A stretch of DNA of 61,992 bases from Lachnospiraceae bacterium 3-1 (GTDB lineage: Bacteria; Bacillota; Clostridia; Lachnospirales; Lachnospiraceae), in assembly GCA_000403255.2 (NCBI GenBank), contig KE159595.1:84264-146255 (forward strand). The letters are read 5' to 3'. The position numbers were made by a program, and so were the translations under genes. The number at the start of each line of letters is the position of its first letter. Position 1 is the stretch's first letter. The notes beneath the pieces were generated by a model, which made no database searches, was not told the DNA's origin, and saw only the letters and a list, made by a program, of their open reading frames with translations. Positions 19,866-46,761 of the stretch are shown one piece after another.

Positions 19866-20165
19866 AAGATAAAAGTAAATTATTAATCTTCTAATTCAAA
19901 CTTATCTTCATTTACAAGCTCTCGAATAAATTCCTCAAAACTATTACTCCGGCGCTGGGACAGTCACAAATAGCTACTCCAATGGCAGGGTACTCCCAGT
20001 TGTCAATCATAAATTGACTTCCCAACTCTCCACATAACGAAGAACTTTTTTCCTCCCAATACCAAAAATTCCTGTAATAGCTACATGGTCTTTTGCCCAA
20101 CTGAATTCCGATATTACACTTTCTGTCACTTTCCGACAAATGGGAATTAGTCGAATTTATCCTCT
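19866..20165 (-). pseudogene. second SUKH (SMI1/KNR4) immunity-type gene, decayed
   Basis: Pieces of one SMI1/KNR4-family protein can be read in more than one frame: FSWAKDHVAITGIFGIG, then SSLCGELGSQFMIDNWEYPA and IGVAICDCPSAG, then SFEEFIRELVNEDKFELED. A frameshift lies in the A-run near 20050. A deletion of about 30-40 residues lies after CPSAG at the point (19942-19954) where the DNA reads TATTACTCCGGCG, the same as a MITE terminus. The 5' end merges with the preceding SUKH gene. SUKH proteins are immunity factors against contact-dependent or polymorphic toxins. No toxin gene is seen in the window. Confidence 0.55.
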
Positions 20166-20695
20166 CCCCGGATTTTCTTGTTCTTCCGTTCTTCTAACTC
20201 CGCAATTTGGTTCATCAAACAATCTGAAAAAGTCCCTTCAATCGGTGTGGCTTCTCCTGTTATATAGTAGTCAAGAAGGACTATGTTATTATCCTTGTCA
20301 AAACAAAATATTTCATCACCATTCCCTATAATGGACAAGAATGGAATAAAATCAGTAAAACCTTCATCGTGTAGTTCTTTTGTTTTTTCCTGAATATCCA
20401 AAAAATCGGGTATTCCATTGGCAATTCCATAAACTATAATTCCACGACAGAACGACCAAAATGGGCCTATGTCATACTGTTTCGCTCGTGGCCATATTTC
20501 TTCCTGAACCTCCATATAAAGCCCGCCTAATGGGGACATAGTAAACTCTCTAAAATCGGCAGGAAGATTTATCTCATACTGGTTTTCAAAATTCTTTATA
20601 TCCTGTTCCGATGGCTCATTTCCCATACAAGCTACAACCTGATAAGTCTGCTTATCATAATTATGGAAATAATCGTAAACTTTCTCTAATGCCAT
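20147..20695 (-). CDS. SUKH (SMI1/KNR4) superfamily protein, immunity-type
   Basis: ATG 20695 (MALEKVYDYFHNYDKQTYQV) follows GGAGGT at a good distance. The 182-residue protein has the SUKH pattern: an N-terminal helix pair with EQDIKNFENQYEINLPADFR, then the conserved centre (MSPLGGLYMEV), and a later IPFLSIIGNGDEIFCFDKDN, which fits the I-x-(I/F)-x3-G-x-G-D strand of this family. Such proteins bind and block toxins of interbacterial conflict systems. It stands beside a decayed relative (19866-20165), so the two probably belonged to an array of immunity genes. A frame extending to 20770 exists but has no ribosome-binding site. Confidence 0.75.
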   Translation of the reverse strand: MALEKVYDYFHNYDKQTYQVVACMGNEPSEQDIKNFENQYEINLPADFREFTMSPLGGLYMEVQEEIWPRAKQYDIGPFWSFCRGIIVYGIANGIPDFLDIQEKTKELHDEGFTDFIPFLSIIGNGDEIFCFDKDNNIVLLDYYITGEATPIEGTFSDCLMNQIAELEERKNKKIRGEDKFD

Positions 20696-20770
20696 GATAA
20701 TAACCTCCATTCCGCCGCTTTTCAGGTGCGGCACAAATATAATCAGTGTAAGTTCTGCCTTTTCAAGCAC

Positions 20771-22768: not shown

Positions 22769-22928
22769 GGGGGAATGTTGATACAAAGAACAGAGGGAAA
22801 GCGTGATGGTGAGAGAGTAATCTGAGGGTGTAAAGAAAGTGCTAAGAAATGGGAAAAATGGGGAATTATGGTGAAAAAGCAGGGGAGGTGTGGTATGATG
22901 AGAGTGATAATTGTTGAAAAAAGGATAG

Positions 22929-23123
22929 ATAATAAAAAGTTATCCGTTGGTTTTTGGTGAAATAATTGAATGGATAATCCACTGTTATCTGTCAATTTGG
23001 CGAGATAGGAAGGGTATGGATAATTGATAGTTATCCGTTGGATATTAGAAGTGGGAAATCTTGGATAACAATTTATTGTTTGCCAACTTTACAGAAAATG
23101 ATAGATTACAGGTTTCTTTTCTT
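22929..23123 (+). repeat. left 195-bp inverted repeat of the 5.86-kb island
   Basis: These 195 bases are the reverse complement of 28594-28788 with two mismatches that I can see (in GGATATTAG/GGATTTTAG and ATTACAGG/ATTACTGG). The repeat holds several copies of TTATCC/GGATAA: 22940, 22972, 23018, 23031 and 23063, among others; the 12-mer GTTATCCGTTGG occurs twice (22939, 23030). The dehydrogenase gene starts 29 bp inside it, so its promoter must lie in or next to the repeat. Confidence 0.95.
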
Positions 23124-23151
23124 AAATATATGATTTTGAGAGGTAGTATTT

Positions 23152-24171
23152 ATGCTTAAAATTGGTATATTAGATAGAATTACAATACCAGATTTGGAAG
23201 AAAGAATTTTAAATTCTATTGGCAAAATAATCTGCTTTAATGCAACCAACGAATGTGAACTTCCAAATGAAATAGCTAATTTAGATGCTGTAATTGTTTA
23301 TAATAAAATAACACTTACTCAAATTACAATTAATAAACTATTGAATTGCAAAGTAATTGTTAAGGCTGGTGTGGGCTTTGACAATATTGATATTTGTGCC
23401 GCTGGAAATATTGGGATTCCAGTAATAAATGTTCCAGATTATGGTACAAATGATGTGGCTGATCATACATTTGCACTATTTTTGTCATATGTAAAAAAAA
23501 TCGGGTTTTATAATAATGCCCTTCAAAAGAATATAGTTCAATATTGGAAACCCGGGAATGGAAAAAAAGTGCACAGATTGTCAGAACTAACTTTCGGAAT
23601 AATAGGAATGGGTCGAATCGGAACTGCTGTTGCAATGCGTGCAAAAGCTTTTGGAATGAATGTTGTTTATTATGATCCGTACCTTCCAGATGGTTATGAT
23701 AAAACCTATCAAGTTAAAGAATTTAAAGTTCTTGAAGAATTAGTAAGCAATAGTAATGTGATTTCCATTCATGTCCCACTTAATAGAAATACAGAGAAGA
23801 TGATTAATTACTCATTATTACAGAATGCTAAGTATAAACCTATATTGATAAATACTGCAAGAGGTAAAGTGATTAATACTGAGGATATATATTTATCATT
23901 AAAAGAAAATATTATTGAAGCATATTTAGCTGATGTTTTCGAGTCAGAGCCACCTTCAGATAATACAGAACTACTGCTACAGTTTTCTCTAGAAGATGGG
24001 ATTTTTCGAGATAGAATAATTTTCACTCCGCATTCAGCTTCCCATACTATTGAAGCGAGAAAGGAAATGCGTGAAAAAGCGGCAATTAGTGTTAAGATGT
24101 TTATACAAGAAAATAAAATGAAAAATTGTATTAATTATAACATATTGCAGAGGAACAACTATTATGAATAA
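23152..24171 (+). CDS. D-2-hydroxyacid dehydrogenase-family protein
   Basis: A protein of 339 residues with the phosphoglycerate dehydrogenase/CtBP fold. The N-terminal part holds VIVKAGVGFDNIDICAAGN and NVPDYGTNDVADHTFALFLS. The NAD-binding motif is GIIGMGRIG, with YDP at the end of the next strand, which favours NAD. The catalytic Arg lies in INTARGKVIN, the Glu near ADVFESEPP and the His in FTPHSASHT. Members oxidise or reduce 2-hydroxy/2-oxo acids such as glycerate 3-phosphate. It is the first gene of a three-gene operon and overlaps the RtcB-like gene by 8 bp. The partner genes make a plain serine-synthesis role unlikely; it may act on a nucleotide- or RNA-derived acid or play a structural role. 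Confidence 0.88.
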   Translation: MLKIGILDRITIPDLEERILNSIGKIICFNATNECELPNEIANLDAVIVYNKITLTQITINKLLNCKVIVKAGVGFDNIDICAAGNIGIPVINVPDYGTNDVADHTFALFLSYVKKIGFYNNALQKNIVQYWKPGNGKKVHRLSELTFGIIGMGRIGTAVAMRAKAFGMNVVYYDPYLPDGYDKTYQVKEFKVLEELVSNSNVISIHVPLNRNTEKMINYSLLQNAKYKPILINTARGKVINTEDIYLSLKENIIEAYLADVFESEPPSDNTELLLQFSLEDGIFRDRIIFTPHSASHTIEARKEMREKAAISVKMFIQENKMKNCINYNILQRNNYYE

Positions 24172-25249
24172 AAAAATGAAAAATCATAGAAAATCATTAA
24201 AGAACTTTATTGACATGAGTTCAGGTGATCCAACAGCTATTATTGCAAAAGAACATGGGCTCATGGGACTTACACGTCTTATAATGTGTATGGATAAATT
24301 AGGATTAAATACTGATAATAATTATTTCATAGCTTTACCAGACTATACATATACAAGAAATTCTTTCCGTTGGAATGCGGGTTTTCCCTATGGGTGCATA
24401 ATATGCACCGATCAAACTGAGCCTTTTATTCCTATAGATTTCAGACCTAATTGTTGTGGTGTTGTTTTTGCAGAAATACCAGAAGATGAATTTGATTTAG
24501 TCAAACTAAAAAATACATATCATTCACTTTTACACTCTTATTCAGACTTAGATTCAACAGATTTTAATAGGCGGAATCATTTTTTTGGTATTTACCGTAA
24601 TGAAAAAACTGATAAATATTATTTTTTAATTCATGGCTCTTTTATGTTTGCCAAAAACGGTTTATACAGTGAAAAAAATCAAGACTTAGTAGCTCAAAAG
24701 AAAACTATGGATGTATTAGGGACTCCTCTTAATTATTTGTGTGGATACGAGGCTAAACAATATTATAATAATTATATACACCACGAAGAACTCTCCAATT
24801 TTTATCGAGAATTGATTTTAAAGACGTTATTTCCTGAGGCAAAAATACTATTTCATCGCACACATGAGGGGTTTATGGATATGGGAACACTTTTGTTAGG
24901 GGCATATGCAGATTATAATCCCTTTAGTTGTCCGATTATGCTGTCACCGGATGAAAGTTTACCTTATGTAAATATAAACAATCCAGTTGAATTAGGAGAT
25001 TCAAAAAAATTATATTGCGCCCCACATGGTGGTGGATATGCATTGTCATCAGTTATTGATGCCCAAAAAACAGAAATGATAGGAAATGAATTTTTAATAA
25101 CTTATACAAATAATTCAAAAATGTTAACAAATAATATTATTGATATGCCTTTCTGCTATAGGAATGACTCTGCAGATAAATGGTGTTCTTTATATAAAAA
25201 AGGCAATATAATTGAAACATTAAAACCGTTATTTAATTTAAAGGTATAA
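24164..25249 (+). CDS. divergent RtcB-like RNA ligase, candidate
   Basis: A protein of 361 residues that resembles RtcB in its order of motifs: FPYGCIICTDQTEPFIPIDF followed by PNCCGV (about residue 94; RtcB has DINCGV with a metal-binding Cys), RNHFFGIY (about 136; RtcB NHF), YYFLIHGS (about 156; RtcB H-x-GSRG), FHRTHEGF (about 230; RtcB HRKG region) and APHGGGYALS (about 285; RtcB HGAGR, where His is guanylylated). RtcB joins RNA ends bearing 2',3'-cyclic phosphate and 5'-OH with GTP and Mn. The match is by pattern only, spacing is compressed (RtcB is usually 400-480 residues), and some residues differ (HGGGY for HGAGR). It overlaps the dehydrogenase gene and ends just before the phosphatase gene. 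Confidence 0.5.
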   Translation: MNKKMKNHRKSLKNFIDMSSGDPTAIIAKEHGLMGLTRLIMCMDKLGLNTDNNYFIALPDYTYTRNSFRWNAGFPYGCIICTDQTEPFIPIDFRPNCCGVVFAEIPEDEFDLVKLKNTYHSLLHSYSDLDSTDFNRRNHFFGIYRNEKTDKYYFLIHGSFMFAKNGLYSEKNQDLVAQKKTMDVLGTPLNYLCGYEAKQYYNNYIHHEELSNFYRELILKTLFPEAKILFHRTHEGFMDMGTLLLGAYADYNPFSCPIMLSPDESLPYVNINNPVELGDSKKLYCAPHGGGYALSSVIDAQKTEMIGNEFLITYTNNSKMLTNNIIDMPFCYRNDSADKWCSLYKKGNIIETLKPLFNLKV

Positions 25250-25251
25250 TT

Positions 25252-25803
25252 ATGAATGTAAATCATTTGTTCTTTTTAAGGCATTGTCAATCTTTATATA
25301 ATGTGCAGGAGAAAATTAGTGGACAGGCAGACTGCCCAATTGTACATAAAATTATTGATTGCTCAGTTTTAAAGGAAATCTTATCATCAGAAAACGTAAT
25401 TATAATTTCTTCTCCGCTAACAAGATGTTTAGATACCGTAAATTTATTACAAAATTCTGTTTCAGTGACATGGCCTATAATAGTGGATAAAACAATTATT
25501 GAAAGAGGTATGGGCAGATGGGAAGGACAGAAAAAAACTATTATTATAAAACAATTTCCTGAATTTTTTTATAATGGCAAATTTATTGTAAAATTAACAC
25601 CAATTGGAGGTGGCGAAAAATATGTGGATTTTAGAAATAGATTGATTTTTTTTATCCATACTATAAAGGAATTATTAAAGGAAAAGCACATAATTGTTTG
25701 TTCTCATAATCAAACTTTGCGGATGATTACAGCATTAATAACAAATAAAAATTTTGATATTATTTCGTCCTATCCCAATGGAGTTGTTACAAAAATACTT
25801 TAA
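25252..25803 (+). CDS. histidine phosphatase (phosphoglycerate-mutase-like) protein
   Basis: A protein of 183 residues. The N-terminal motif is FFLRHCQSLYN (RHC in place of the usual RHG), followed by SSPLTRCLDT with the conserved Arg, ERGMGRWEG with the proton-donor Glu, and CSHNQTLRMI with the second catalytic His. This is the two-histidine (branch 1) phosphatase fold. Such enzymes remove phosphate from small molecules, sugars, nucleotides or protein. It is the last gene of the operon and starts two bases after the RtcB-like stop. With an RNA-ligase-like partner it might process phosphate ends of nucleotides, but this is conjecture. Confidence 0.8.
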   Translation: MNVNHLFFLRHCQSLYNVQEKISGQADCPIVHKIIDCSVLKEILSSENVIIISSPLTRCLDTVNLLQNSVSVTWPIIVDKTIIERGMGRWEGQKKTIIIKQFPEFFYNGKFIVKLTPIGGGEKYVDFRNRLIFFIHTIKELLKEKHIIVCSHNQTLRMITALITNKNFDIISSYPNGVVTKIL

Positions 25804-25837
25804 ATAGCCAGTACCTAACAACACAGGCTATTTAAAG
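25798..25837. terminator. bidirectional terminator between the two units of the island
   Basis: A perfect 12-bp stem, CTTTAAATAGCC and GGCTATTTAAAG, with a 16-base loop. It overlaps the phosphatase stop codon and lies before the 3' end of the converging nuclease gene. Confidence 0.75.
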
Positions 25838-25864
25838 TAATCAAAGAATTCTGTGCTCTAACCA

Positions 25865-28549
25865 CTAATTTAAATCTGGTGATGGAATTATGCCACTGTT
25901 GATTAGCAGTCCTGATGAAATAGGTTTTTGCTTTGTGAGCAATAGATCAAAATCGTTCTTGGCATTTTGATCAAGAGAGTTATAATAATATTCTTTAATT
26001 CGTAAAGTTTCCTCTTTTAATTTGTCTTCTATCTCATTATATTCCTTTTTAGAAATATTATATAGATCATCCCATTTATGCTCTGATAATTCCATTATTG
26101 TATGTATACGATATAATAGTTTCTCATCAATAGCTATTTTTAAACCATCTACTAACATGCCTTTCAATTCCTCCATATTATAATCAATATGGTATTTAAG
26201 TACGTTTTCTATTAAAATTATATTAATTGATAGTACCTCTTTATTCAATCCTAATTTTAAAGCAACATTTCGAGCTTCGTTTATATAATAGATAGCCTCT
26301 ACAAACTTATTTTGCTTAAAAAAGATTTTAGCATATGTTTTATATGAAAAAGCAAAACCCCTTAAATCTCCAAATGATTCCTTTATAGAAATACTTTTTT
26401 TGGTATATTCAATACCATCATCTAATTCATCCAACAAATAGCAACATTTAGCGATTCGATAATATGCGTATGATTTTCTTTTAGGTGTTATAATATTATC
26501 TAATTTAGAAAGTGTATAAAATGTATTCTTACTTTCTGATATATAATTACAGCAACATTCCACCATTGCTATTCTATGTATTGATTTCATAACTAATGAC
26601 AAATTGTTAACACGAAGAGCATTCTGATAACTTAATAAGTATAATATTAAAGCCGTTTCTAAATCTCCTCTAATATAATAAACTCTTCCCGTTACTAAAA
26701 AAATTTGTATTCTTATTTCGGTAGTTGTATTTTCCGATATGTAATCCCTATTATCTGAAACTGATTTCAAGAGTATATCATATTGATTCGTAAAATAAAG
26801 ACATCTTAGATAAATATAATAAATTTTTTCCCACTTTTTTGTACAGAGTTTTGTTTCGCTTTGTATCATGTTAATGTAATTGATACAAATAGTATGTTGT
26901 GATAGTCTTTCTAATAATATGATTTTCATTTTCAGTAAGTCAATTAAATTCTGATTATCAAATTGTGCATCTTCAATCATTTGAACTCGCTTTAATGTAT
27001 TCTTGATAAGTTGTTTATGCAAAAAATTTTGAAAAGAATTTTGTAAAACTATATAGGCATCTCCAATCTGTTTACGATCAATGTAAAGATCAATAAGATC
27101 TAAAGATATTTCTATCTCATAAGAAGATATCTCTTTCAGATGAGTTACAACATCTTGAAAATCCAAATTATTTAGCGGATAATTTTTAAAAAAAGGGCGA
27201 TATTTGTCGTGAATGTTATAGGAAGTTCCTCTACATTCAATCAATCGTTTTTCAACAAGAGAATATATACTATCAATTAAATCGAATTTTGTCCAATAAT
27301 GTAATTCTATAGGAATTGAAGAAAATGTCAAAATGAAAAGGGCTTTTTTTTCTGTAGAAGTCAAGCAATTAATAAATCCATGTAAAAAAGTATCATTGGT
27401 TTCCATAGTGTCTTGACTTGTATTTTCATCGACTAATATAGCATATCCAGGTAAACCATTATATTTATCCTGAATCAAAGTTGCTATTTCTTTTTTTGAT
27501 TGTCCAATATTGTGAATTATAATTTGATCAAGATGATAATCAGCCAGCCCTTCCAAAACCAATACTTTCATAGCTTTGTTTAGCAAAAAGGACTTTTTAA
27601 AAATATTGAACCATCCAATAAAATAAATACGACAGAGTTTATTTTCTATGATTGTCTCAAAAGTTTCTTTTAGTATCACATTTTCCGTTTGACATTTGTG
27701 CACATCATCAATTACCAATATTGGCTCATAGATATTAAAAAGCAATGTTAAAATACTTAAAAGTTCGTTGGATAAGTAATAACCATGATTAGATAAATAT
27801 ATTTCCAATTTACTATCATTACAAACAATGGTAAAAAAGTGCGCCAAAGCAGTATAAAAGGCTTTGTTTTGTTGCTCTGATTCATCTGTTCTGACCGTAT
27901 GCCAAAAAATTTTTTTCCCTTTTTGATTATATAAATACACTATATTTTTTATAAGCTGTGTTTTTCCACATGCAGAAACTCCCTGAACATAAAACGCTTT
28001 ATAAGTATCTTCCAATAAAATATTGCGTTCAATTTCTCGATTAACAAGATAATGATCTGTCACCGAAATCTGATTATCATACTCTAAATTTACTAACGAT
28101 TTATTATCAGTACGATTAATGGAATTGGTGATTCGTGTTTTTAAACCATAAAAAATAATATAATCATCCTCTTGCAATGCAGATATATAACGTTCTATAT
28201 TTAAACTTTCCTCAAATTGCACAGCTATTTTATATTCTTCACTAAATAGCTTTATATAATCTTTTGCAGAAGGCGTTAGGTTAGGTGTTATCCAAAAATA
28301 TAAAAGTGCCGGCCTATGTATTTTAGCCCAATCCAGTGCCGGCATTACAACTTCTTTATTAACAGGCTTAGTATAGTTTTTACATTCTACAATAACATCA
28401 TATAACTGAGTTCCGATTTTATATTGAAGCAATATATCTTTTCCACGATCTGCTCCTCCAATATAATGTGATATGTTATATGGATTGGTTTGATACAATA
28501 TTTCACATACTGTTCTTTCAAACTCAGTTCCTTTATCTGTAGATGACAT
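25865..28549 (-). CDS. Mrr-like nuclease - STAND NTPase - TPR protein (candidate defence effector)
   Basis: ATG 28549 (MSSTDKGTEFERTVCEILYQ) follows GGAGG; the ATG at 28564 overlaps this site. The 894-residue protein has three parts. Residues 1-130 look like an Mrr-type PD-(D/E)xK nuclease: ADRGKDILLQY and YDVIVECKNYTKPV give the D...ExK core. Residues about 170-400 form a STAND-type NTPase, with Walker A (GVSACGKTQL) and Walker B (PILVIDDVHKC). From about 500 on come repeated helical pairs of TPR type (GDLETALILYLLSYQNALRV; LDDGIEYTKKSISIKESFGD). The same order (effector nuclease, NTPase switch, sensor repeats) is found in Avs-like anti-phage proteins. It probably cuts DNA after the repeats detect a trigger. 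It is opposed to the RtcB-like operon. Confidence 0.82.
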   Translation of the reverse strand: MSSTDKGTEFERTVCEILYQTNPYNISHYIGGADRGKDILLQYKIGTQLYDVIVECKNYTKPVNKEVVMPALDWAKIHRPALLYFWITPNLTPSAKDYIKLFSEEYKIAVQFEESLNIERYISALQEDDYIIFYGLKTRITNSINRTDNKSLVNLEYDNQISVTDHYLVNREIERNILLEDTYKAFYVQGVSACGKTQLIKNIVYLYNQKGKKIFWHTVRTDESEQQNKAFYTALAHFFTIVCNDSKLEIYLSNHGYYLSNELLSILTLLFNIYEPILVIDDVHKCQTENVILKETFETIIENKLCRIYFIGWFNIFKKSFLLNKAMKVLVLEGLADYHLDQIIIHNIGQSKKEIATLIQDKYNGLPGYAILVDENTSQDTMETNDTFLHGFINCLTSTEKKALFILTFSSIPIELHYWTKFDLIDSIYSLVEKRLIECRGTSYNIHDKYRPFFKNYPLNNLDFQDVVTHLKEISSYEIEISLDLIDLYIDRKQIGDAYIVLQNSFQNFLHKQLIKNTLKRVQMIEDAQFDNQNLIDLLKMKIILLERLSQHTICINYINMIQSETKLCTKKWEKIYYIYLRCLYFTNQYDILLKSVSDNRDYISENTTTEIRIQIFLVTGRVYYIRGDLETALILYLLSYQNALRVNNLSLVMKSIHRIAMVECCCNYISESKNTFYTLSKLDNIITPKRKSYAYYRIAKCCYLLDELDDGIEYTKKSISIKESFGDLRGFAFSYKTYAKIFFKQNKFVEAIYYINEARNVALKLGLNKEVLSINIILIENVLKYHIDYNMEELKGMLVDGLKIAIDEKLLYRIHTIMELSEHKWDDLYNISKKEYNEIEDKLKEETLRIKEYYYNSLDQNAKNDFDLLLTKQKPISSGLLINSGIIPSPDLN

Positions 28550-28593
28550 TATATTTTCCTCCACTCAAACAACATTTATCAATTATGAATCTC

Positions 28594-28788
28594 AAGAAAA
28601 GAAACCAGTAATCTATCATTTTCTGTAAAGTTGGCAAACAATAAATTGTTATCCAAGATTTCCCACTTCTAAAATCCAACGGATAACTATCAATTATCCA
28701 TACCCTTCCTATCTCGCCAAATTGACAGATAACAGTGGATTATCCATTCAATTATTTCACCAAAAACCAACGGATAACTTTTTATTAT
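28594..28788 (-). repeat. right 195-bp inverted repeat of the island
   Basis: Reverse complement of 22929-23123 with two mismatches. The nuclease-STAND gene starts 45 bp inside it. Confidence 0.95.
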
Positions 28789-28978
28789 ATATTAAAAAGC
28801 AGATAAATATAGTAGCCACAAGCATATCGTATTACATGTTCACGGCTACTATTGTTTACATCTGTTTCCAACGGGCTTGCATTGCTATTAGAAAAACATT
28901 TTTATAATTTTTTAATGGTCGGATTGCTTTATCATTTCCAATTTCAATTCTTTTTCTTTTGAACCCCTTTCATAAATT

Positions 28979-29285
28979 GTAAGCGCTTTATAAGTAACCG
29001 GATAGTCAAACTCCAACTTTTGTGAGATACTTGGAGTAATTCACTTCCTATCCAGTTCTCGGAGTTGCAAAAGCTACGCTTTAATCTCACATCTTTGGTC
29101 GCTTTTGTTGTACCTGGTTACTCTAAAATCTTACATTGGAGAAGATGGATCAAATGAGTACAACTTCAAATGATGAATATTGGTTAAAACTGATCACTCA
29201 GTGCAGATCCAGTGGTCTTACCAACCGCCAATGGTGCATGGAAAACGGGATTCCTGTCAGCATATTTTACTATCCTCCATTTTAA
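28979..29285 (+). mobile_element. IS66-family remnant, left end and TnpA fragment
   Basis: The sequence at 28979 (GTAAGCGCTTTATAAG) has the form of an IS66 terminal repeat. After about 165 bases a frame from ATG 29145 reads MDQMSTTSNDEYWLKLITQC then RSSGLTNRQWCMENGIPVSI and ends at TAA 29283-29285. This is the N-terminal 43 or so residues of the small IS66 accessory protein TnpA. TnpB, TnpC and the right end are missing. It lies 190 bp outside the right inverted repeat. Confidence 0.75.
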
Positions 29286-29594
29286 ATTTAGTGTATAGAA
29301 AAAATTACAACATATGAGTTTCACAATTACCGAAATACTGTATAGATAAATTATCGCATAAAAGTTAATATATACAAATAATAAAAGATAAAAAGGGATT
29401 TTTGACATATAAATAAAAATAATATTAAAAATATAATACTTTTATAAAAAAATACTTGATTAATTAAGTATTTGATGTTAAATTAAAAATATACAAATAA
29501 ATTGTTAGATTGTTATTTTGTATAGACAAAAATAACAAAATATGATGGATTTGATGGTAATGTAAACACTATCCAACTTTTTAGGAGGTGCATT
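29286..29594. other. AT-rich intergenic region
   Basis: Very AT-rich, no gene. It must hold the promoter of the two exported proteins that follow; a TAGGAGGTG ribosome-binding site ends it. Confidence 0.5.
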
Positions 29595-30736: not shown

Positions 30737-31657
30737 TTATATACAAAAATCCTTCCTTGGATGTTTTGTGGCAAGAATATCCCGTTGTTTTGCTACCGCA
30801 ACATGAGTATAAATTTCTGTAATATTAATCGAACTATGTCCAAGCATTTCCTGAATATAACGAATATTGACATCCGCTTCCAGAAGGCTTGTTGCAAATG
30901 TATGACGGAACATATGTGGTGTAATGTGTAATTCTATGGATGCAAGGGAGGTGTACTTGTTTATCATTCTGCGCACTGCCTGATCCGATAATGTTTTTCC
31001 AGATTGGTTTGTGAAAAAATGATGGCAGGATTGGATTTCCTTATAAAAACTGTTCCGGTATTCTACAAGGATGTGGATGACGTCTGTGCTTCCAACCTGA
31101 ATGCGCCGTTCTTTATCTCCTTTTCCATAAATCAGGATGATTCCGTCATATAAATTTACATCTTTATCCTTCAATGTGCAGAGCTCTGATATTCTCATGC
31201 CTGTGGAAAACAAAAGTTCCACAACAGCAGCATCCCGCAATGCATTTCTTTTCTGGTAATCGGTTTTTGCATATTTTTTCTGTTGATAGATGGTGGCAAG
31301 AAATGCTTCAACTGTGCGTAAGGGAATTGTTTTTGGCAGTATCGTAGGTTCACGAAACCGTATCTGTATTTTGTTGAACGGATTTCGGTCAATGATTTCT
31401 TTGTATTCGAAGTAATGAAAAAGTGCTTTGATGGAAGCAATTTTTCGTTTAGCGGTTCGGGGTTTGTATTGTTGATGGAGTATAGTAATATATTTTTCCA
31501 ATATATCGGAGGTGATTTCTGAAGGATTTTCAACAACTGTCTGTTCAGAAAATTGCCTTAAATCAATGCGGTATGCTTTTAGGGTTTTTTCGTCCAGGCA
31601 TTTTTGAGCAGCGCAATAGTTCAGATAATTTTCCATGTGTTTCTGTAAATTGTTCAT
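30737..31657 (-). CDS. tyrosine recombinase (XerC/D-like)
   Basis: ATG 31657 (MNNLQKHMENYLNYCAAQKC) follows AAAGGAG; the longer frame to 31828 has no such site. The 306-residue protein has an N-terminal SAM-like core-binding domain (LKAYRIDLRQFSEQ) and a C-terminal catalytic domain with Arg in STGMRISELCTL, HMFRHTFATSLLE (H-x-x-R), LGHSSINITEIYTHV (His and Tyr nucleophile). It breaks and joins DNA at short inverted sites. A separate chromosomal XerD lies at 45877, so this one is probably an accessory recombinase, for a mobile element or DNA inversion. It sits 2 kb from the 195-bp inverted repeat. No attachment site could be assigned. Confidence 0.88.
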   Translation of the reverse strand: MNNLQKHMENYLNYCAAQKCLDEKTLKAYRIDLRQFSEQTVVENPSEITSDILEKYITILHQQYKPRTAKRKIASIKALFHYFEYKEIIDRNPFNKIQIRFREPTILPKTIPLRTVEAFLATIYQQKKYAKTDYQKRNALRDAAVVELLFSTGMRISELCTLKDKDVNLYDGIILIYGKGDKERRIQVGSTDVIHILVEYRNSFYKEIQSCHHFFTNQSGKTLSDQAVRRMINKYTSLASIELHITPHMFRHTFATSLLEADVNIRYIQEMLGHSSINITEIYTHVAVAKQRDILATKHPRKDFCI

Positions 31658-31958
31658 AGTGAATTTCTCCTTTGTATAATTTTTCCTGTGGGCTGTAACC
31701 AGGCAGGAGCGTAAACATATGCTTTCGCCTGATAAGGATATATTGTACACGCATTTTATAAAAACAGAAATTAAAAAATATACAAAGAAGAAAAAGTTTA
31801 CGTATCCTTTTTGATTTTTCATTGTCATGACAAATTTGAAATGCTATAATCATATGGATCACTTTATATTCAAAGCTCTCCATGAAATATAACCAGCCAA
31901 GAGGAGATGAGTATTGCAAGGAAATCGGCTGGAAAGAAAATTGAAAATGGAACTATAG

Positions 31959-45876: not shown

Positions 45877-46761
45877 ATGATGACATATGAGATTCAAAAA
45901 TTTGTTCAGTATATGAGGGAGGTTCGTAAGACATCGGATAACACGGTGGTATCTTATGAACGGGATTTGAAGAAAATGAATCAGTTTTTTGTAGAGCAGG
46001 GAATGGACCAGGTAAATCAGGTTACTCTTACAATGCTGAATGCTTATATTTTGTTCCAGGAAAAACAAGGGAGGAAATCATCAACTATTTCCAGGAGTGT
46101 TGCAGCATTGAAGGCTTTTTTTGGCTATTTGTACAAACAAGGTGATATAGCGGAAAATGTGGCTGAGGAATTAAAGGCGCCAAAGGTGGAGAAAAAAATG
46201 CCTGGATTTCTGACGAAGGAAGAAACGGTACGTTTACTGGAGGGGACCAAAGGAAAAACTCCCAAGGAATTACGAGATAGTGCAATGCTGGAATTATTGT
46301 ATGCCACTGGAATTCGTGTGTCAGAGCTGATTTCATTGGAAGTTTCGGATGTGAATCTGACCATGGAATATATTGTTTGCAGAGATGGAAAAAAAGAGCG
46401 TATCGTTCCCTTTGGAGGGGTGGCAAAACAGGCATTAGAGCTTTATTTGCGAGATGGACGACCTGCTCTGAGTGAAGCCAACAATTTTTATCTGTTTACC
46501 AATTGCTCTGGCCAGGCCATGAGCCGTCAGGGTTTTTGGAAATTGGTGAAGGCTTATGGAAGGAAAGCTGGAATTACAAGAGAGCTGACGCCTCACATGC
46601 TGCGACATTCTTTTGCAGTGCATCTGGTCAGCAATGGTGCAGATTTGTATTCGGTAAAGGAAATGTTGGGACATTCCGATATTTCTACCACTCAGGTGTA
46701 TGAGAGAATAAGCGAGAATTCTATGCGGGAGGTTTATGCAAGAGCTCATCCTAGAAGCTAA
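45877..46761 (+). CDS. xerD: site-specific tyrosine recombinase XerD
   Basis: A protein of 294 residues, the normal XerD length. The core-binding domain is KFVQYMREVRKTSDNTVVSY. The catalytic domain has Arg in LLYATGIRVSELISLEV, HMLRHSFAVHLVSNG (H-x-x-R), LGHSDISTTQVYERI (His and Tyr nucleophile). XerD resolves chromosome dimers at dif together with a partner. Its place after NUDIX and spoIIM is conserved, which argues for the housekeeping recombinase, in contrast to the gene at 30737. Its terminator has been split by an ISL3-type insertion. Confidence 0.93.
   Translation: MMTYEIQKFVQYMREVRKTSDNTVVSYERDLKKMNQFFVEQGMDQVNQVTLTMLNAYILFQEKQGRKSSTISRSVAALKAFFGYLYKQGDIAENVAEELKAPKVEKKMPGFLTKEETVRLLEGTKGKTPKELRDSAMLELLYATGIRVSELISLEVSDVNLTMEYIVCRDGKKERIVPFGGVAKQALELYLRDGRPALSEANNFYLFTNCSGQAMSRQGFWKLVKAYGRKAGITRELTPHMLRHSFAVHLVSNGADLYSVKEMLGHSDISTTQVYERISENSMREVYARAHPRS

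Follow-up and report, generated by a model that had tools for sequence, protein, structure and literature searches.

What kind of element is a short AT-rich island that is closed on both sides by almost the same sequence in opposite orientation? The question is raised by a stretch of 61,992 nucleotides from Lachnospiraceae bacterium 3-1 (contig KE159595.1, positions 84,264 to 146,255; hereafter the window), in which 5.9 kb holding four genes lies between two inverted arms. A first-pass annotation had read this island as a packaged conflict or repair system whose units share upstream DNA and probably a regulator, an interpretation that is in part supported. We consider it likely that the island is an invertible, exchangeable cassette flipped by an Xer-type recombinase, with a two-unit conflict cargo and an outside promoter that picks the unit. 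It belongs to a family of invertible cassettes in gut-type Clostridia, and different cassettes are found at the same sites in related species.

The arms are 199 nt each, 98% complementary and spaced by 5470 nt, a repeat that far exceeds chance, and they are the only two copies in the genome:

22925..23123, + strand: left arm of the inverted repeat (arm comparison)
28594..28792, - strand: right arm of the inverted repeat (arm comparison)

Their alignment shows one mismatch near the outer end (22928) and two more within 22929-23123 / 28594-28788, which bears out the 195-bp inverted repeat with two differences annotated there. The island is AT-rich, as had been noted, with a G+C content of 27-31% versus 34-44% clear of it (2-kb windows). 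The open reading frame coordinates likewise agree with the annotated four genes in two converging units, three on the + and one on the - strand, with no transposase among them. The annotation was silent on a tyrosine recombinase gene 1.9 kb outside the island (30737-31828).

Each arm carries GGATAAY-N5-RTTATCC palindromes at 45-46 bp intervals (22927, 22972, 23018 and, in degenerate form, 23063), and GATAAYN5RTTATC occurs five times in the window against 0.05 expected:

22927..22945: outermost left core palindrome, one mismatch, spacer AAAAA
22972..22990: second palindrome, one mismatch, spacer CCACT
23018..23036: third palindrome, exact, spacer TGATA
23063..23081: fourth, degenerate palindrome, three mismatches
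28681..28699: right-arm palindrome, spacer TATCA, partner of 23018
28727..28745: right-arm palindrome, spacer AGTGG, partner of 22972
28772..28790: outermost right-end palindrome, two mismatches, spacer TTTTT, partner of 22927

In its own genome, the exact motif is restricted to the two arms. Sites of the Xer/dif system consist of two inverted half-sites of about 11 bp around a centre of 6-7 bp, with an ATAA...TTAT core. The cassette sites share this half-site layout and the core but differ in the outer bases; and whereas dif is a single site for chromosome dimers, the sites described here flank cargo as inverted pairs.

The motif GGATAAYN5RTTATCC was found in 49 of 295 relatives, often as two copies 2-7 kb apart, and the reversed pattern used as a control in 12 of 295 by our own count among the matches listed; a motif search of IMG/VR returned 7 contigs. 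From among the matches listed, 57 site loci were fetched, of which 16 show both ends and were counted as cassettes, 8 appear to be half cassettes cut off by the end of a contig (L097/L098, L100/L101, L102/L103, L124/L141), and 33 have a single site or no visible partner. Together with the window, L003-L005, and L172 and L175 (the last two with sites of up to two mismatches), this gives 22 cassettes of 1.9-7.3 kb. Alignment of 38 ends yields the core TGAtGGATAAT-nnAnAG-TTATCCGTTg. The spacer sequence differs from cassette to cassette, and the outermost spacers are exactly reverse-complementary in all 22. Among 36 site pairs lying 0.5-9 kb apart with at most one mismatch, 22 have spacers that match in inverted orientation, 14 differ, and none matches directly. 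The sequence shared between the two ends of L004 and L005 is barely more than one palindrome, and some cassettes have only 20-31 bp of repeat and still carry matching outermost sites; the repeat of L003 is longer and broken by an assembly gap. The palindromes could form hairpins, yet a reading of the arms as RNA hairpins was dropped because the folding of arm RNA is not unusual (z -1.76 and -1.00) and the spacers match in the manner of DNA sites.

The recombinase gene next to the island is the following:

30737..31828, - strand: Xer-type tyrosine recombinase, predicted invertase, 3' end facing the cassette, 1.9 kb outside it

Among 22 aligned homologues, three motifs do not vary, namely R (G-x-R), K (GKG-x-K) and H-x-F-R, and the later H and I-Y are conserved in at least 85% of them; we take the R, K, H-x-F-R, H and Y motifs to provide the catalytic residues. 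The recombinase is encoded by 22 of 29 genomes of the genus, and exact sites are present in 16 of these 22 versus none of the 7 negative genomes (Fisher p 0.0011, without correction for ancestry). It lies within 2.5 kb of 16 of the 22 cassettes. Among 21 examples hand-picked for having a site close to the recombinase gene, 17 have its 3' end -11 to +111 bp from the site; the count without such picking is 12 of 24. The gene end overlaps the site in L087, L096, L099 and L136. In L005 and L114 (4611-5594), which belong to a subgroup with 45-47% identity, the start of the gene rather than its 3' end adjoins the site. The recombinase of L086 is 7.4 kb off on the same contig, L092 is tied to its recombinase via contig C11, and none was found in the DNA fetched around L003, L088, L107 and L129. 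In the window, 29110-29290, between the right arm and the recombinase, resembles by eye what is presumably the remnant of an IS66-type accessory gene, and this may explain the 1.9-kb distance. L122 combines one site and a recombinase with no visible cassette and can be called a candidate, at most, for a never-filled empty site. A second tyrosine recombinase of the window (45889-46758; G000:C25:130152-131021) is 30% identical to the cassette recombinase and is probably a housekeeping Xer.

Inversion is observed in sister cassettes. Locus L086 of genome G795 and L097+L098 of G803 are 99.98-100% identical in flanks and cassette, with the cassette reversed between the same flanks and the breakpoints lying within 90-bp arms. 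In G790, two contigs carry the right end of the L092 cassette: at the terminus of C237 it connects with the left flank (26 bp), whereas on C11 it runs into the recombinase flank. Most simply, the sequenced sample would have contained both isomers, the alternative being an assembly error. A contig of G798 ends, beyond its right site, in a 25-bp copy of its own left flank, as the inversion process would give. Homologous cassettes are also oppositely oriented to the recombinase in L087 versus L175 and in L094 versus L109. The marks of an inverton found here are bounding inverted repeats, a linked recombinase with an intact active site and, in sister cassettes (L086 versus L097/L098; G790), both orientations.

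The same sites are also where homology between related loci breaks. L087 and L099 are orthologous loci with flanks 88-93% identical, in which homology reaches up to and through each site, and no DNA match is found between the interiors of the two cassettes. Between L090 and L091, the right flanks are homologous from the site outward; on the left, homology extends up to the L091 site, which aligns with a degenerate palindrome of L090, identified by eye, 45 bp outside its first exact site. Here too the interiors show no DNA match. The counterpart of the window locus in G804 is split over separate contigs, one with the short-chain dehydrogenase gene of the left flank (87%) and one with the recombinase (82%); both contigs end at the palindrome AGATAACTCCGAATTATCC, the spacer of which differs from that of the window, and no RtcB-like gene was found in this genome (83% complete). 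There is no site at the G790 copy of the window's left-flank gene (L036). At the window ends, no target-site duplication is obvious by reading, and an unoccupied version of the window locus was not found.

The cassettes are built alike. Their genes form two convergent units in 21 of 22 cases, against about 3.1 of 22 expected from the flanking open reading frames, and one unit is usually an enzyme set. This set includes an ATP-grasp protein of D-Ala-D-Ala-ligase type in L086, L088, L089 and L096, with radical SAM alongside in L086 and L089; nitroreductase, ATP-grasp and radical SAM in L087 and L175; and ATP-grasp and radical SAM in L107 and L129. Other enzyme units hold a carbamoyltransferase (L093), a pyruvyl- and a glycosyltransferase (L091), radical SAM (L136), SHMT-like (L095), PLP-decarboxylase-like (L090) or aminotransferase-like (L172) proteins, a nucleoside kinase with HAD and TIR proteins (L099), and RtcB-like proteins in four cassettes. 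The opposite unit encodes a STAND-like, NACHT-SIR2, TIR, SIR2-SLOG, TPR or pentapeptide protein, a protein with a HEAT-repeat match (L091), or one without any match; in L092, a TIR protein is paired with a P-loop protein.

Partner pairs recur, and the two units therefore look like one system. An RtcB-like protein accompanies a STAND protein in four cassettes, and ATP-grasp/radical SAM proteins accompany a pentapeptide protein in L087, L107, L129 and L175, both partners being homologous throughout; a nitroreductase joins this pair in L087 and L175, and DUF4760 proteins do so in L087 and L129. The pentapeptide protein of L087, the one tested, has no PADLOC match. L094 (367-3075) and L109 (5693-8370) place a protein of 337-349 amino acids opposite one of 561-563 amino acids, with 51% and 50% identity between the loci; the only Pfam match is TPR in L094, the other three proteins having none, and the smaller protein shows weak BLASTP similarity to the ATP-grasp proteins of other cassettes. 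STAND-like partners of ATP-grasp cassettes were rejected as a further recurring pair: those of L086, L088 and L089 do not match one another (BLASTP 1e-3), although their ATP-grasp proteins do.

One cassette resembles a described defence system. In L099 (3911-7515), a gene whose product matches ThsA over its full length (E 3.8e-98) faces one for a TIR protein that matches ThsB (E 3e-11); the cassette so holds the genes by which Thoeris is recognised, a SIR2-SLOG ThsA plus a TIR ThsB. The best PADLOC match of the TIR protein is the candidate PDC-S66 (E 5.5e-16). Both matches are as in Thoeris, but the L099 genes lie on opposite convergent units and the TIR side also encodes a thymidylate/deoxynucleoside-kinase-like protein and a HAD phosphatase. 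Judged by its sequence, L099 would be the anchor of the cassette family to known defence. In a PADLOC scan of sister-cassette proteins, 5 of 10 were without a match.

The cargo of the window cassette is as follows:

23152..24171, + strand: D-isomer 2-hydroxyacid dehydrogenase (PF02826/PF00389), optional cargo
24164..25249, + strand: RtcB-fold protein, 361 amino acids, no Pfam family
25252..25803, + strand: histidine phosphatase (PF00300), optional cargo
25865..28549, - strand: Mrr-type nuclease - STAND ATPase - TPR protein, 894 amino acids; the reading frame may start at 28564

Domain and fold assignments uphold the annotated nuclease-STAND-TPR protein opposite an operon for RtcB-like, dehydrogenase and phosphatase proteins. 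The RtcB label holds for the fold but not for a family profile: identity to RtcB RNA ligase is 10-13%, none of 35 members of the RtcB-like family matches the RtcB profile in Pfam, and no RtcB match was obtained among PDB sequences. Residues C97, C98, N138, H139, H157, H234 and H288 are invariant in the family and may correspond to the metal and nucleophile residues of RtcB. The RtcB fold also rules out an unrecognised transposase. A search for the whole four-gene set had been proposed; the RtcB-like/STAND pair does recur, in the four cassettes mentioned, whereas the dehydrogenase and phosphatase are optional. The RtcB-like protein has no match in either the plasmid or the phage collection and is found on one IMG/VR contig (L006); the STAND protein has no confirmed match in IMG/VR. 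In PADLOC, the STAND protein matches no Avs profile, but matches the candidate PDC-M58A over the nuclease region (E 2e-6; another row has E 0.07). The longest contig is 4.4-4.7 kb for 21 of 86 RtcB-like and 19 of 52 STAND homologues, with an identical longest-contig size in 14 pairs of proteins; such clustering fits assemblies that break at inverted ends and is only supporting evidence.

How inversion might affect expression was approached through promoter predictions:

22871..22899, + strand: candidate promoter outside the cassette and directed inward, GTGAAA-17-TGn-TATGAT (consensus match only)
23080..23107, + strand: candidate in-arm promoter TTGCCA-16-TGn-TAGATT, also in the right arm at 28637-28610 on the - strand

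Promoters were consensus scores with a shuffle test (p <= 0.05), applied to 20 of the 22 cassettes (L172 and L175 were left out). No shuffle was as good as the external candidate (0/60 and 0/100), and the orthologous left flank in G804 (start of L182) shows a similar extended -10 by eye; the in-arm candidates have shuffle p values of 0.02 and 0.03. For the window cassette, only the left flank passes. Of the 20 cassettes, 12 have a passing inward promoter on a single flank and none has one on each (chance is about 2 of 40 flanks), compared with 11 and none of 19 in an earlier run. A promoter passes on the recombinase side in 2 of 14 cases and on the other side in 7 of 14. Within the arms, a promoter passes at 4 of 40 ends, and the window's own arms account for two of these. 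In the minimal cassettes L094, L095, L096, L107 and L109, only 27-46 bp lie between site and start codon on either side, too little to fit a promoter of its own. Read most economically, inversion would swap the promoter-facing unit with the unit facing the recombinase gene. Strict alternation is not claimed, because partner pairs recur and Thoeris requires both halves; given the candidates in both of its arms, the window copy may express both units in either orientation.

Altogether, we favour a model in which dif-like palindromic core sites, lying in inverted orientation at the cassette ends, would be recombined by the Xer-type enzyme encoded just outside (30737-31828), so that the whole 5.9-kb segment flips; recombination at these sites probably also lets one cassette replace another at the same place. 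The cargo would be one system divided between two convergent units, each beginning at an arm, one an RtcB-fold RNA-ligase-like operon and the other an Mrr-STAND-TPR nuclease. The flank promoter at 22871-22899 would drive whichever unit faces it, here the RtcB operon, the other unit lying downstream of the recombinase gene in what appears to be most sister loci. The STAND-TPR protein may sense an invader component, oligomerise and release the Mrr nuclease, while the RtcB-like protein, phosphatase and dehydrogenase could process RNA termini or a small ligand and serve as its partner, as an antidote or as the source of a signal; the window cargo may be anti-phage. More speculatively, docking loci composed of a recombinase, one or two dif-like sites and an outside promoter might constitute a natural recombinase-mediated cassette exchange for immunity, in which interchangeable defence systems are split into two convergent halves, a single half facing the promoter in either orientation, and in which flipping unites the halves and arms the system, possibly upon recombinase induction, with the RtcB-like/STAND pair as a new defence system. 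We advance this extension tentatively and regard it as somewhat doubtful.

Other explanations account for part of these observations. The sites could only swap cassettes without loss, inversion being a neutral by-product and both units being always expressed from arm or flank promoters. This would suit the recurring partner pairs (RtcB-like/STAND in 4 cassettes, ATP-grasp/pentapeptide in 4, L094/L109 in 2), the Thoeris-like halves on opposite units and the in-arm promoter candidates in both window arms, but the five minimal cassettes lack space for a separate promoter and in 12 of 20 cassettes just one flank has a promoter, which makes a platform for exchange alone rather unlikely. Alternatively, the arms might be mere duplicated promoter or operator DNA for a common regulator, with no recombination. 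Both units do start just inside an arm, and palindromes spaced by 45-46 bp resemble operator arrays; yet an operator has no need of the inverted spacer match seen in all 22 cassettes, sister loci are inverted, cargo changes at the sites, and the sites co-occur with the recombinase, so that we find a purely regulatory role very improbable. Inversion might instead proceed by ordinary homologous recombination of the long arms, the recombinase only integrating the cassette or being incidental. Arms of 90-199 bp could serve RecA, and in the L086 and L088 genomes the recombinase is 7.4 kb away or on another contig; however, in many cassettes the repeat around the core measures only about 20-40 bp and the inverted spacers are nevertheless kept identical, and the linkage to the recombinase is strong, leaving this route with little credibility. 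A transposon or composite insertion sequence pair with long terminal repeats and a transposase in trans recalls the foreign-looking AT-rich island with inverted ends and the nearby IS66-like remnant (by eye). Against it stand the single arm pair in the genome, the lack of an internal transposase or an obvious target duplication at the window ends, the recurrence of cassettes at orthologous loci and the site flanking the tyrosine recombinase gene at the single-site locus L122; we hold it to be extremely improbable.

Several observations weigh against an invertible cassette with an outside switch. Sister cassettes are inverted, as the proposed comparison of relatives had sought, but inversion of the window's own cassette was not seen, and the 90-bp arms of G795/G803 could recombine by RecA too. 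The link to the recombinase is loosened by the 1.9 kb that separate it from the cassette in the window, by the L003 genome, which holds no more than a 35% homologue, and by the genus at large, in which only 12 of 24 recombinase copies have a site (up to two mismatches) within about 1.5 kb a side and 3 of 24 matches contain a TAA within the alignment. The units of L089 are not convergent in the strict sense. As for expression, neither flank passes in 8 of 20 cassettes, L086 and L003 switch sides of the threshold between runs (earlier, L003 passed and L086 failed), and the right flank of L092 is too short for scoring. In the window, the promoter candidate found in each arm argues against strict either/or expression, and strict mutual exclusion would disable the L099 cassette, since Thoeris needs both halves.

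DNA inversion by tyrosine recombinases and the alternation of gene sets are already known. The G segment of phage Mu has a convergent layout, and an outside promoter decides which gene set is read. With the P1 C and e14 P segments, named beside it in PMC12529663, it shares with the cassettes a whole invertible segment, alternative gene sets and an adjacent recombinase gene; unlike the cassettes, which have an Xer-type tyrosine recombinase, dif-like sites and conflict-system halves exchanged between species, these segments use serine recombinases and switch tail-fibre variants. PMC12529663 also ties a serine-recombinase inversion to phage resistance. Tyrosine-recombinase invertons of Firmicutes include the pneumococcal PsrA-hsdS system (PMC7096588) and the RecV switches of C. 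difficile (PMC5386303, PMC7446863), and a gut survey links invertons of Clostridia to tyrosine recombinases (PMC11892184). These cases have in common with the cassettes the tyrosine recombinase, inverted repeats and DNA inversion, but flip promoter regions or recombine a specificity gene, whereas here the unit is a whole two-operon segment of 2-7 kb. No description of this family, or of 2-7 kb two-operon invertible cassettes with varied cargo, was found in the literature searched. If the model holds, one recombinase and one site motif would mark a class of invertible, interchangeable conflict cassettes in Clostridia, and the motif would therefore be a discovery tool; it has led to a Thoeris-like system, to several cassettes with TIR or STAND proteins and to pairs of an enzyme and an effector that recur. 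It would also offer a mechanism for the turnover of defence genes at fixed chromosomal sites and one by which DNA inversion holds costly abortive systems in check, and would make phase-variable immunity by flipping the halves of one system directly testable.

RtcB-like proteins also occur outside cassettes (L006, L030, L032, L033, L034), with DUF4062 (some with a P-loop region), HAD or HD proteins as neighbours; one such domain sits within an 870-amino-acid protein with a histidine phosphatase next door. This group is possibly another conflict or RNA-repair family. Upstream of the island, the window encodes an immunity-type protein of the SUKH/SMI1-KNR4 type (20147-20770).

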